Assembly: GCF_005871085.1 (NCBI RefSeq)
Contig: NZ_VAUP01000035.1
Coordinates: 62,001 to 126,000, forward strand
Origin: Xanthobacter autotrophicus
GTDB lineage: Bacteria; Pseudomonadota; Alphaproteobacteria; Rhizobiales; Xanthobacteraceae
Reading direction: 5' to 3'
DNA length: 64,000 nt
The notes below the pieces were generated by a model. It was not told where the DNA came from, ran no database searches, and saw nothing but the letters and a program-made list of their open reading frames with translations. Below, piece by piece: positions 7,183-51,544 of the stretch. A program made the translations under genes and the position numbers. Each line of letters starts with the position of its first letter. The stretch's first letter is position 1.

Positions 7183-7749
7183 ATGGCCCCCCGCAAGACG
7201 CCATCCCACAAGACCCCTACCGTCAAACCTTCCTCCGCCAAGACCCATCCCCGTCGAACCGCCCCGACCGCCGCCTCCGGGCCACAGATGAACCTGGCCG
7301 AAAGCCCCCTTGCCTGGCTCGCCCGGCGCACCGGAAAGGACGGTCGCGCCCTGGTGGACCCGACCCAGCTGGCCGCCGGCGAGCGGCTGCGGGCGGATTT
7401 CACCCGCGCCCAGCTCACCCCGCGCGTCACCAGCCGCTGGAGCGAGGTTTCGGGTGCGGGCACGCCGGAGGCCTTCACCGACATGGTGCTGGCAGCGAAG
7501 CTGCGGGTCAGCCGTGCCATGACGGCGGTGGGGCCTGAACTGTCCGGCGTGCTGCTGGATGTGTGCTGCTTCCTGAAGGGGCTGGAGGCGGTGGAGCGCG
7601 AGCGGCTTTGGCCGGCACGCACCGCCAAGGTGGTGCTGGGCCTCGCCCTCGACCGGCTCGCCGTTCACTACGGCCTCAGCGGAGTGACGCAGGGCCGCGC
7701 CCGCGCCCCGGTGCGCAGCTGGCACGCCCCGCCGGAGCCGCCGGCGTGA
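7183..7749 (+). CDS. DUF6456-family protein
   Basis: A 188-residue protein of unknown function. The N-terminal 35 residues are Lys/Thr/Pro-rich and probably disordered. The remainder (about 40-185) is alpha-helical with the pattern SPLAWLARR, RLRADFTRAQLTPRVTSRW, VLLDVCCFLKGLEAVERERLWPARTAKVVLGLALDRLAVHYGL, which I recognise as DUF6456, common in Hyphomicrobiales. The start at 7183 is two bases after the stop of the DnaA-domain gene, implying a translationally coupled pair. Family members often carry or neighbour a helix-turn-helix domain, so a shared role in DNA binding is likely but unproven. Confidence 0.75.
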   Translation: MAPRKTPSHKTPTVKPSSAKTHPRRTAPTAASGPQMNLAESPLAWLARRTGKDGRALVDPTQLAAGERLRADFTRAQLTPRVTSRWSEVSGAGTPEAFTDMVLAAKLRVSRAMTAVGPELSGVLLDVCCFLKGLEAVERERLWPARTAKVVLGLALDRLAVHYGLSGVTQGRARAPVRSWHAPPEPPA

Positions 7750-7752
7750 TAC

Positions 7753-7857
7753 CTTCGGCCTCGGCCTACGACCGATGCCAAATGGGTCCGCTCAAACGCC
7801 GCATGGGCTTGACCTATGGCCCATGAGCAAAGCTCACGGGCCGCAAGTATGAGCCCC
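7753..7857 (+). repeat. dispersed repeat, copy A (about 105 bp, internal hairpin)
   Basis: This interval matches, in inverted orientation, the region 50455-50565. Shared blocks in order are TCGGCC, GACCGATGCC, TGGGT, CGCTCA, GGGCTT, ACC, then a hairpin of GGCCCATGAGC, a 3-base loop and GCTCACGGGCC (one G-T pair), and GAGCCC. The match is roughly 75-80 percent by eye over the core. It fills the gap between the convergent DUF6456 and decarboxylase genes, so it may act as a bidirectional terminator or be a small non-autonomous element. Confidence 0.7.
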
Positions 7858-7859
7858 AC

Positions 7860-9272
7860 TCAGGACAAGGCGCGGGCGGTCTCGCGGATGATGTCGAAGG
7901 CGGCGTCCACGTCCGCTTCAGTAGCCTCCATGGACCCCGCCTGAAAGCGGATGGCGAGGCGGCCGTCCACCCGGGTCGGGGTGAGATAGAGCTGCCCGCC
8001 ATCATTGATGGCCTGGAGCAGGGCCAGCATGTGGGCATCACCGTCGCGTCCGTCGCCGGGATCGTGGCGGAAGGCGAACAGGGACAGCACCGGCGTCGAG
8101 GCCAGCGCGAAGCCTGGCTCCGCCGCGATGCGCGCGGCCAGCGCCTGCGACCAGCCCACATGGTTGCGGATCATCTGCCGCAGTCCCTCAAGCCCGTGGG
8201 CCCGCAGCACGAACCACAGCTTCAGCGCCCGGAAGCGGCGGCCCAGCTGGATGGTCCATTCGCTGAAATTGACGATGCCATCATGGGCATGGGTCTTCAG
8301 ATATTCCGGCTGGATGGCCAGCGTCGCCAGATGGTCGTCAGGGCTCCGGAGGAAATGGGCGGAGCAGTCGAACTGCACGCCGAGCCATTTGTGGGGGTTC
8401 AGCACGATGGAATCGGCCTGTTCCACCCCCGCCCACAGGGGACGGAATTCGGGACACACCATGGCCGAACCCGCCCAGGCCGCATCCACATGGACGAACA
8501 GGCCATAGCGGTGCGCCACCTCCACCACTGCCGCAACGTCATCCATGGCGCCGGTGCTGGTGCCACCCACGCAGGCGACGACGCCGGCCGGCACGAAGCC
8601 TGCCGCCTTGTCGGCCTGAATGGCCGCCTCCAGCGCCTCGGGCACCATGCTCCTGAGCGGGCCTTGCGTGGGGATGCGCACCAGATTGTCGTCGCCGATG
8701 CCGCAGAACCATGCCGCCCGGTCGATGGAGCTGTGCACCTCGCTGGAGGTGTAGACCCGCAGTTGCGGGCGGCCCGAAAGCCCGGTGCGATTGCCGGTGA
8801 AGCCCAGCGCCCGCTCGCGCATGGTGAGGAAGGCGCACAGGGTAGCCGAGGAGGCCGAATCCTGGATCACGCCGGAAAAGCCCTCCGGCAGGCCCACCGC
8901 CTGGCGCAGCCAGTCGAGGGCCACGATCTCCAGCTCCGTGGCGGCAGGGGAGGTCTGCCACAGCAGGCATTGGGCGCCCATGGCGGAGGAGAGAAATTCG
9001 CCGATCACGCTCGCCGGACTGGCATTGGCCGGAAAGTAAGCGAAGAAGCGCGGGTGCTGCCAATGGGTCATGCCCGGCACCAGGATGCGCTCGAAATCCG
9101 CGAAGATGTCGGCCATGGGCTCTGCCTCTTCCGGCGCGGAAGTCGGCAACTGGGCCGCGATCTCCCCCGGCTTGGTGCCGGCGCGCACCGGGCGGTTCTT
9201 CAGGCCCGCGCGATAGTCCGCCGCCCAGTTCGCCGCCACCAGCGCCCAATGGCGGAACGCCTCCCCCTTCAT
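7860..9272 (-). CDS. PLP-dependent group II amino-acid decarboxylase (aromatic-L-amino-acid decarboxylase-like)
   Basis: A 470-residue enzyme of the DOPA/tryptophan/tyrosine decarboxylase family. It shows the N-terminal THWQHPRFFAYFPAN block (69-83), EVHSSIDRAAW with the PLP-stacking His180, the PLP-binding Asp in HVDAAWAG (261-268) and the Schiff-base Lys295 in NPHKWLG. Length and domain order match the family. Substrate cannot be read from sequence: aromatic amino acids (giving tryptamine, tyramine or phenylethylamine) are most likely. The gene is divergent from ilvD, with 240 bp between, and ends against the dispersed repeat. No transporter or amine oxidase is adjacent, so its pathway is unclear. 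Confidence 0.88.
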   Translation of the reverse strand: MKGEAFRHWALVAANWAADYRAGLKNRPVRAGTKPGEIAAQLPTSAPEEAEPMADIFADFERILVPGMTHWQHPRFFAYFPANASPASVIGEFLSSAMGAQCLLWQTSPAATELEIVALDWLRQAVGLPEGFSGVIQDSASSATLCAFLTMRERALGFTGNRTGLSGRPQLRVYTSSEVHSSIDRAAWFCGIGDDNLVRIPTQGPLRSMVPEALEAAIQADKAAGFVPAGVVACVGGTSTGAMDDVAAVVEVAHRYGLFVHVDAAWAGSAMVCPEFRPLWAGVEQADSIVLNPHKWLGVQFDCSAHFLRSPDDHLATLAIQPEYLKTHAHDGIVNFSEWTIQLGRRFRALKLWFVLRAHGLEGLRQMIRNHVGWSQALAARIAAEPGFALASTPVLSLFAFRHDPGDGRDGDAHMLALLQAINDGGQLYLTPTRVDGRLAIRFQAGSMEATEADVDAAFDIIRETARALS

Positions 9273-49812: not shown

Positions 49813-50322
49813 GTGGCTAAGATTAACAAGGTTCTGATCGGTGAAGCGCTTGTCGGCGACGGCAACGAGGTGGCTCACATTGATCTCATCATCGGCCCGC
49901 GTGGTAGCGCCGCCGAAACGGCGTTCTGCAACAGCCTGACCAACAACAAGGACGGCTTCACCTCGCTTCTCGCGGTGCTCGCCCCCAACATGCCCTGCAA
50001 GCCCAACACCCTGTTGTTCAACAAGGTGACCATCAAGGATGCGCGGCAGGCGGTGCAGATGTTCGGACCCGCGCAGCGCGGCGTCGCCAAGGCGGTGCAG
50101 GACGCGGTGGCCGAAGGCACCATCCCGCTGGACGAGGCCGACGACCTCTACATCTCCGTCGGCGTGTTCATCCACTGGGAAGCGGCGGACGACGCCAAGA
50201 TCCAGCAGTACAATTACGAGGCGACCAAGCTCTCCATCGAGCGCGCCGTGGCGGGTTTCCCCTCCGCCAAGGAAGCGACCGAGCAGCGCGATCTGGTGAA
50301 GCACCCCTTCGCGGCGGCCTAG
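49813..50322 (+). CDS. fae: formaldehyde-activating enzyme (tetrahydromethanopterin hydro-lyase)
   Basis: Catalyses condensation of formaldehyde with tetrahydromethanopterin to methylene-H4MPT in the cytoplasm, the entry to H4MPT-linked formaldehyde oxidation in methylotrophs. The 169-residue protein matches the Fae family along its length: [23 protein letters not shown] with the likely active-site His22, [45 protein letters not shown] and [28 protein letters not shown]. The start is a GTG at 49813, with GGAGGG six bases upstream. It has its own leader and terminator. Confidence 0.96.
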
Positions 50323-50420
50323 AGCGGAAACCACCCTGGGCAGAGCGGCGACCTTCCGGCGATGCCGAAAGGTCTGCTTCAGCGGTTGGCCGCCCTATTT
50401 TTCAACAAGTAAGTCTGAAG

Positions 50421-50454
50421 CGACCGGCGGCACTCCCGCCGGTCGTTTCTTTTT
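50421..50454 (+). terminator. Rho-independent terminator of fae
   Basis: A perfect 10-bp stem (CGACCGGCGG with its complement), a five-base loop and TTTCTTTTT, 98 bases after the fae stop. This is a classical strong terminator. Confidence 0.92.
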
Positions 50455-50565
50455 GGGCTCAGCTTATGCCGATGGCCTGTGAGCTTGGCTCATGGGCCGT
50501 CGGTTAAGCCCGCGCCGCGCGTGAGCGTACCCACTCGGCATCGGTCAACGAAGAAGGCCGATGGG
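50455..50565 (-). repeat. dispersed repeat, copy B (inverted relative to copy A)
   Basis: Read on the minus strand, this interval follows copy A (7753-7857) block by block: ATCGGCC, GACCGATGCC, TGGGT, CGCTCA, GGGCTT, ACC, the hairpin GGCCCATGAGC / GCTCACAGGCC, and GAGCCC. It starts immediately after the fae terminator and ends next to the stop of the convergent beta-propeller gene, so both copies lie between converging transcripts. Confidence 0.7.
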
Positions 50566-50566
50566 A

Positions 50567-51544
50567 TTACGGCGCCGGGTCGCGCCGGATGAAGGCGCCG
50601 AACGCGCGGGGGCCCTCCCCCACCGCCACGCTCGCCACCACCTTCAAGGTCTGGGCGTCGATGGTGGAGAGGGTATTGTCGAACCAGTTGGCCACATAGA
50701 CGTGCCGGCCATCGGCGCTGGCGGCGATGCCTTCGGGATAGTCTCCCACATGCACCAGGCCGCGCGGCTCCAGCGTCTCCACGTCGAACACGCTGACCGT
50801 GCCCGCATACTGGTTGGTGACGAAGGCGAGGCGCCCGGTCAGCGCCACCGCATAGGGCCGTGATCCCACCTTCACCGTGCCCACCACCGCACGGGCGGCC
50901 ACATCGATGACGCTCACGTCGTCCGAGCCCACATTGGCCGTATAGGCGCGCGTTCCATCCGTCGATAGGGTGATGCCGAACGGCCGCTTGCCCACAGGGA
51001 TCACCGCCACCCGCTCCAGCCGTGCCGCATCGATGAGCGAGACCGTGTCGTCGTCCCGGTCGGCGGAGAGCACGAAGGCGCCGTCGGGGGTCACCGCAAG
51101 GCCGGACGGGGAGGCGCCGGCAGGCCCCATGCGGATCTCCTCGGGGCGATCGGGGTCCACCACCAGCAGGCGCGCGCCGTACCAGTCGGCCACATAGACC
51201 GGGCGTCCGGCCGGGGCCACCGCCACGCCCAGCGGGCCGCCGGTGAGGGGAATGCTGGCAATGACCTTCCGCGCCACCGTATCGATGACGCTCAGGGCCT
51301 TGCCCTCGGGGCTGGTGACGAAGGCGCGCCGGCCATCCTGTGACACCGCCACGCCGGCCGGCTGGCCGGGCACGGGGATGCGGGCGACGAGGCGCGCCGG
51401 CGCCCCGTCGGTGCCGCCAAGATCCACCACTGCCACCTCATTGCCCGGCTGGTTGGTGACGAAGGCTTCTTCCGCACCGGCAGACGCGACAGCGCCCAGA
51501 AAAAGCGCGAGGGCGGCAGCCGCCCCCCTCGCCTTCAGCCCCAT
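50567..51544 (-). CDS. YVTN-family beta-propeller protein
   Basis: A 325-residue exported protein. Signal peptide is about 1-24 (ending SAGA-EEAF). The mature part is six or seven repeats of the pattern VAVVDLG, IPVPGQPAGVAVSQDGRRAFVTS of the YVTN/NHL-like propeller found beside PQQ dehydrogenases. It likely acts in the periplasm as a binding or assembly protein. The ATG overlaps the stop of the upstream MxaD-like gene (ATGA), so they are one operon. A second propeller of the same family lies at 54190. Confidence 0.88.
   Translation of the reverse strand: MGLKARGAAAALALFLGAVASAGAEEAFVTNQPGNEVAVVDLGGTDGAPARLVARIPVPGQPAGVAVSQDGRRAFVTSPEGKALSVIDTVARKVIASIPLTGGPLGVAVAPAGRPVYVADWYGARLLVVDPDRPEEIRMGPAGASPSGLAVTPDGAFVLSADRDDDTVSLIDAARLERVAVIPVGKRPFGITLSTDGTRAYTANVGSDDVSVIDVAARAVVGTVKVGSRPYAVALTGRLAFVTNQYAGTVSVFDVETLEPRGLVHVGDYPEGIAASADGRHVYVANWFDNTLSTIDAQTLKVVASVAVGEGPRAFGAFIRRDPAP

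Follow-up and report, generated by a model that had tools for sequence, protein, structure and literature searches.

The window analysed here, a stretch of 64,000 nucleotides from the genome of Xanthobacter autotrophicus, contains two similar noncoding sequences (copies A and B) in opposite orientation, which raises the question of what kind of element they represent. An earlier note on this DNA had matched the two sequences and had offered three options: a non-autonomous mobile element, a family of bidirectional terminators or a small RNA. The match is borne out by a blastn comparison of copy A with the window, in which copy B aligned without gaps at 76.2% identity over 101 bp (E 1.6e-16), and by the local alignment of the pair, which scored 55 against a maximum of 28 in just under 2000 random pairs from the window. 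The copies are thus real, but the bounds first given for them (7753-7857 and 50455-50565) were slightly off, the elements lying at 7750-7849 and 50467-50566. Both were correctly placed between convergent gene ends, copy A between the genes 7288-7749 (plus strand) and 7860-9272 (minus strand), and copy B between 49813-50322 (plus strand) and 50567-51544 (minus strand), where the gene starts are those of our own simple codon-score gene caller.

Insertion at both window loci with duplication of a TNA triplet

Comparison with related genomes revealed sites at which the element is absent. At locus A it is missing from four relatives (L106-L109), two of which (L107 and L108) carry the junction GGCG-TGA-GCCCC where the present genome has GGCG-TGA-[100 bp]-TGA-GCCCC; the junctions of the other two carry further changes. 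Together with its duplications copy A occupies 7747-7852 on the plus strand. The left TGA (7747-7749) is the stop codon of the gene 7288-7749, the element itself, 100 bp that begin with TACC and end with AGTA, is bounded by the alignment and the empty sites to 7750-7849, and the right TGA follows at 7850-7852. Within the element lie a 5' hairpin arm, GGCCTCGGCC TAC GACCGATGCC, at 7757-7779 (the position of helix 1 of the covariance model described below), a linker, GCTCAAACGCCGCATGGGCTT, at 7790-7810, which is the counterpart of the core GCTCAAGCGCCGCRCGGGCTT, and a 3' hairpin arm at 7812-7849, in which the paired core GGCCCATGAGC AAA GCTCACGGGCC spans 7818-7842 and the outer part is largely unpaired.

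At locus B one relative (L138) has the empty junction CAGC-TTA-TGGCG, compared with CAGC-TTA-[100 bp]-TTA-CGGCG here; an orthologous copy is present in a second relative (L134), a partly deleted one in a third (L135), and at both window loci more distant relatives have diverged too far for the junction to be read. Copy B, which with its duplications spans 50464-50569 on the minus strand, comprises a TTA at 50464-50466 on the side of the gene 49813-50322, the 100-bp element at 50467-50566, again bounded by alignment and empty site, with the paired core of its 3' arm, GGCCCATGAGC CAA GCTCACAGGCC, at 50474-50498, and a second TTA at 50567-50569, which on the minus strand reads TAA and is the stop codon of the gene 50567-51544. 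At both window loci the element therefore inserted at a TNA triplet and duplicated its three bases (TGA at A, TTA at B).

A multi-copy, patchily distributed element and its anatomy

The earlier note had proposed searching the complete genome and its relatives with both a nucleotide search and a covariance model, and would have taken its idea as refuted had these been the only two copies. They are not. A nucleotide search of the 5.0-Mb genome with copy A gave 43 matches at E<=1, and a covariance model built from 18 copies (R1) gave 83 matches at E<=0.01, 63 of them at E<=1e-5, although the R1 E-values are rough and several of the weakest matches are the opposite strand of stronger copies. Within the genus, 12 of 14 genomes hold between 6 and 85 matches and two hold none; the present genome and its nearest relatives carry the element, by DNA, in 13 of 31 cases, one of them outside the genus; and it occurs in at least 9 of 397 genomes of the order, from seven genera, a lower bound given strict filters and nine candidates scored per genome. 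The element is thus multi-copy and patchy. Under strict filters R1 matched one of six named plasmid records and neither of two Methylobacterium plasmids with blastn relatives, and a plasmid search with the element of genome G020 found nothing.

Two further settings were observed in passing. In genome G424, near-identical copies (L256/L298, L264, L268, L276/L299, L280 and L297) occur at the ends of contigs as part of a longer repeat, with GGACTTACGCA next to the element. This repeat is perhaps an IS that picked up the element and amplifies it; it was rejected as a candidate mover because it looks like an IS carrying the element. The exact linker is also found on six contigs of a viral collection (L283-L288), five of which, by eye, have arms on both sides, and one of the contigs, L286, has two linkers and no clear 3' arm. 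Phages or phage flanks may carry copies.

Each copy is about 100 bp long, codes for no protein and consists of two hairpin arms flanking the linker. The consensus of full copies reads, in order, TNA, TACCATCGGCCTCGGTCTTCGACCGATGCC (the end and the 5' arm), AAGTGGGTAC, GCTCAAGCGCCGCGCGGGCTT (the linker), GACCAATGGCCCATGAGC CAA GCTCATGGGCCATTGGTA (the 3' arm) and TNA, and its ends are short, imperfect inverted repeats, TACCATCGGCC and TACCAATGGCC when read inward. All of the seven copies that were folded did so better than their shuffles (z -2.7 to -7.7). A three-stem structure for the 18 copies pairs 86.8% of cells, compared with 80.7 +- 0.6 in shuffles, with 29 two-sided changes against 7.8 +- 2.3, and pairing falls to 23-43% once the partner strand is slid. 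In an alignment of 96 matches (89 distinct), which was made with the covariance model and hence leans towards it, 87.8% of cells were paired and 229 were two-sided, compared with 65 +- 6 in shuffles. The covariation resides mainly in the stem pairs of the 3' arm, where at least one sequence had changed on both sides in 12 of 16 pairs among the 18 copies and in 15 of 16 among the 96 matches; the original view, in which compensation is confined to some loop and flank positions, is thus too weak for the family. In the 5' arm two-sided changes were evident in 4 of 10 pairs, including one pair in which 24 sequences had switched from T-A to C-G. The 3' arm is missing from some copies.

Two near-identical tandem copies (L101/L103, G000:C39:245042-245226) have a 3' arm that is shortened and palindromic, and extra palindromes occur at or beside the linker in L091 and L096 of the present genome, in L295 from a Methylobacterium plasmid and in L246 from G020, which suggests that entire hairpins can be acquired by the element.

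The insertion signature extends beyond the window. Triplet counts used 70 of the 96 matches, leaving out those below 69.8 bits and the same-place repeats L071, L073 and L177; L070, which has the location of L061, was removed ahead of the final counts, giving 69 copies, which are not all independent as some copies from other species are orthologues and some records may duplicate genomes. Of these 69, 21 have the same outer triplet on both sides (9 of 36 copies in the present genome and 12 of 33 in other Xanthobacter) and every one is TNA, whereas at each of 12 other offsets, taken as controls, identity occurred 0-2 times. When TNA is present on both sides the triplets are identical in 21 of 31 copies (9 of 13 and 12 of 18, respectively). 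The outer triplets differ in 48 of the 69, and TNA is lacking on the left in 15 and on the right in 11 of the 36 copies in this genome, features that we put down to decay. Of 30 listed copies from other lineages, 12 have identical TNA triplets at the ends defined by the model.

Position relative to genes is also skewed, most copies lying 3' of genes and many directly at a stop codon. By the simple codon-score gene caller, 17 of the 36 copies lie between convergent, 16 between tandem and 3 between divergent genes, the last compared with 269 of 641 noncoding TNA sites in flanking DNA and with 137 of 328 within the window. Each of the two window copies has a gene's stop codon among its duplicated triplets, and exact abutment of this kind was found in 18 of the 36 copies and in 17 of 33 from other Xanthobacter. 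By contrast, stop codons make up 89 of the 641 flank sites (binomial 3e-7 for 18 of 36), a control set that excludes the element and 15 bases around it and hence the stop codons abutting elements, and 39 of the 328 window sites. The annotated Pannonibacter plasmid p.p-1 has 14 model matches, of which 13 were examined in context. In five of the 13 the annotation places a neighbour's stop codon at the model-defined end triplet, in one a gene runs through the element and stops at the far triplet (TAG), and in four the triplets are identical (TTA twice, TAA and TGA); two weak matches overlap annotated coding sequence, which counts against a mobile element. The duplication given by the empty sites, a 3-bp TNA, goes some way towards explaining the position at stop codons. 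A gene stays intact when its stop codon is duplicated, and survival of such insertions accounts for much of the bias; the enrichment is most simply explained by the survival of harmless insertions, although it may reflect active targeting of gene ends.

A 21-nucleotide core and unrelated arms in other Alphaproteobacteria

A search of 385 genomes of the class that allowed the linker one mismatch located it in 7 of them, 32 times in the present genome, 25, 30 and 7 times in three others and once each in three; a backward control pattern gave no matches in any genome listed. When the multi-copy genomes were read out, the linker lay within elements that have other, self-complementary arms: TACCAAGGC... 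(Pannonibacter), TACGATTTTCG..., TACCGCCCGG..., TACCAACCGGC... and TACCTGTTGC..., the second of these resembling elements on Methylobacterium plasmids. Between lineages, the linkers of 11 representatives average 93% identity (53 pairs), a figure that partly reflects how the set was built, since the linker led to four of the 11 and its pattern was used to cut out all of them; this bias does not apply to the arm hairpins. The arms are 59-60% identical between lineages, close to the 56% of shuffled arms, although in a few pairs of lineages they resemble each other (up to 96%). Behind the linker, the sequence nevertheless folds into a hairpin in 10 of the 11 (z -3.0 to -8.7 against base shuffles), the exception having an extended linker.

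Several linker-like sequences were set aside by eye. The three single-match genomes (G674, G768 and G783) were not counted as having the element, nor were plasmid matches in S. meliloti, Bradyrhizobium, Microvirga, Novosphingobium and Sphingobium, two of which are coding by annotation (in Bradyrhizobium, and HTH genes in S. meliloti records) while no clear arm pair was seen in the remainder.

The window element thus appears to be part of a wider family whose arms change in sequence and keep their shape around a near-constant core of 21 bases. Tentatively, and with rather less than even confidence, we propose a mobile family extending across the Alphaproteobacteria, defined by the core GCTCAAGCGCCGCRCGGGCTT, by ends that in most lineages are TACC/GGTA and by a TNA duplication, in which the arms would be recognized by shape and would be rewritten but remain self-complementary.

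The candidate mover, rival readings and known relatives in kind

Copies A and B are, we consider with good confidence, members of an approximately 100-bp, non-autonomous, MITE-like mobile element that is probably moved in trans by a TNA-targeting transposase and whose arms are probably kept by shape. Like a MITE, the element duplicates its target (the TGA and TTA empty sites and the triplet statistics), has terminal inverted repeats, albeit short and imperfect, and is dispersed while being too short to encode a transposase (100 bp; 63 matches). It departs from the usual MITE, which keeps its ends and loses its middle, in that the middle is the part common between lineages, and this counts against the assignment. 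A TNA duplication would point to enzymes of the IS5/IS1031 type, the IS1031-type target being a 3-bp TNA, and TNA is present in all 21 identical triplet pairs. A DDE-type transposase of this TNA-targeting kind would be supplied in trans, the machinery would require the hairpin shape of the arms rather than their sequence, and probably also the linker and the outermost bases, and copies would decay after insertion. Consistent with arms needed for movement rather than for function in place, changes in the 3' arm after insertion were one-sided or absent in four orthologous pairs, a small sample.

It counts against the MITE reading that a transposase with matching ends did not turn up in 42 IS5-type loci, comprising 30 loci from 61 PF13340 matches in 14 genomes (31 PF13340 matches being left out) and 12 PF01609 loci from the present genome, some of which overlap. 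In a scan of IS5-type loci for TACCA-type ends even the best pairs had 4-5 mismatches to the 22-base motif, and the inverted repeats picked up by an unrestricted scan were the ends of other ISs. IS5-type elements with TTA or TAA duplications are present in these genomes, with ends that differ from those of the element, and in 112 kb of the copy-rich Pannonibacter plasmid there was no element of greater length that shares the ends of the 100-bp element.

It could be argued that the mobile sequence is retained because hairpins after a stop codon end or protect mRNA, making it a 3'-end cassette that works in both directions. The strong bias towards 3' ends and the stable folds (z -2.7 to -7.7 in seven copies) favour this view, and the element may affect RNA 3' ends, but as the reason for its retention we think it rather unlikely. 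No intrinsic terminator (a G+C-rich hairpin followed by a U-run) was called within either element, no terminator-like site was called at A, the one called at B (50417-50449) belongs to a distinct hairpin that adjoins the element, the orthologous pairs show one-sided or no 3'-arm changes, again in a small sample, and the 3' arm is missing from some copies. The terminator family proposed at the outset is therefore unsupported as the main explanation. The hairpin at 50417-50449, which has a T-run, lies 3' of the gene 49813-50322, whose translation reads as formaldehyde-activating-enzyme-like, and the unit occurs about three times in a row in the relative L137.

A small RNA or cis-regulatory RNA family would account for the conserved linker and the covarying stems, and of the original proposal the fold and the covariation stand, but nothing further. 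Such a family would not explain the empty sites and target duplications; Rfam 15 gave no match above gathering score in the window, a simple scan found no promoter-like site at either copy, the four orthologous pairs lack compensated 3'-arm changes, and the element follows the stop codons of genes on either strand. We regard this as highly improbable. A palindrome of the REP/BIME type moved by a RAYT (Y1) transposase would likewise be extragenic, present in many copies and apparently kept by shape, but target duplication is not expected of Y1 transposition or of REP spread, and the 3-bp duplication at the element makes this reading highly improbable. The terminator and small-RNA readings are thus weaker than the MITE-like mobile element, the one of the three initial options that is backed by empty sites with a 3-bp duplication, by the TNA rule over 69 copies and by patchy presence.

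Short palindromic intergenic repeats of Alphaproteobacteria, among them CIR, Bru-RS and RIME, have been known for decades. RIME are close to 106 bp and contain two palindromes. The three are kin in the kind of element, as compared by description from the available parts of the sources cited here. CIR (Caulobacter intergenic repeats; Chen and Shapiro 2003) are closest in anatomy by a review's description: approximately 110 bp, intergenic, with two long inverted-repeat arms, a linker and TA ends (PMC2229807, PMC10969869). They differ in carrying GANTC in the arm loop (PMC2229807, PMC10969869), whereas the present consensus has none and 7 of 36 copies contain any (8 sites in 3916 bp, about twice the 1.05 per kb of the window); the review marks the CIR target duplication as unknown and leaves mobility open (PMC2229807). 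The Bru-RS1/2 repeats of Brucella resemble the element in length (103-105 bp), in being palindromic and in their dozens of copies, and differ in being reported as hot spots for IS711, whose target duplication is TA, at YTAR (PMC2266754, PMC2267715). RIME share an intergenic location, a host range in Hyphomicrobiales and conserved sequence and secondary structure (PMC2573895); under strict filters R1 had no match in one Sinorhizobium meliloti megaplasmid, a record that may or may not hold RIME. RUP and the short Correia MITEs are likewise non-autonomous, approximately 107 bp long, with inverted ends and target duplication, but they have TA at the ends and RUP has a proposed IS630 partner (PMC2229807), whereas our element has a 3-bp TNA, short imperfect ends, a shared middle and no partner in the loci examined. 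QMITE2 of Coxiella, with partial relatives reported in Alphaproteobacteria, is similarly a MITE that lies chiefly 3' of genes and in intergenic regions, but is longer (150-190 bp), makes 7-11-nt duplications and contains a GTAG REP (PMC5896051).

No description of the element was found in the available text of the literature searched, including PMC2573895, PMC2229807, PMC5896051, PMC2680597, PMC2266754, PMC2267715, PMC10969869 and PMC12542641, a scope outside which the original CIR and RIME papers lie, and the linker fragment CTCAAGCGCCGC was not found as a string in the literature. Judged from its sequence, the element appears to work like a MITE; the more novel part would be the class-wide core combined with shape. 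The linker supplies a core that can serve to detect elements whose arms are unrelated, and the contrast between a shared middle and arms conserved in shape alone makes recognition by the mover directly testable. If the proposal of a class-wide family is true, the mobilization machinery would read core and shape, unlike that of the usual MITE, which is read through its terminal repeats.
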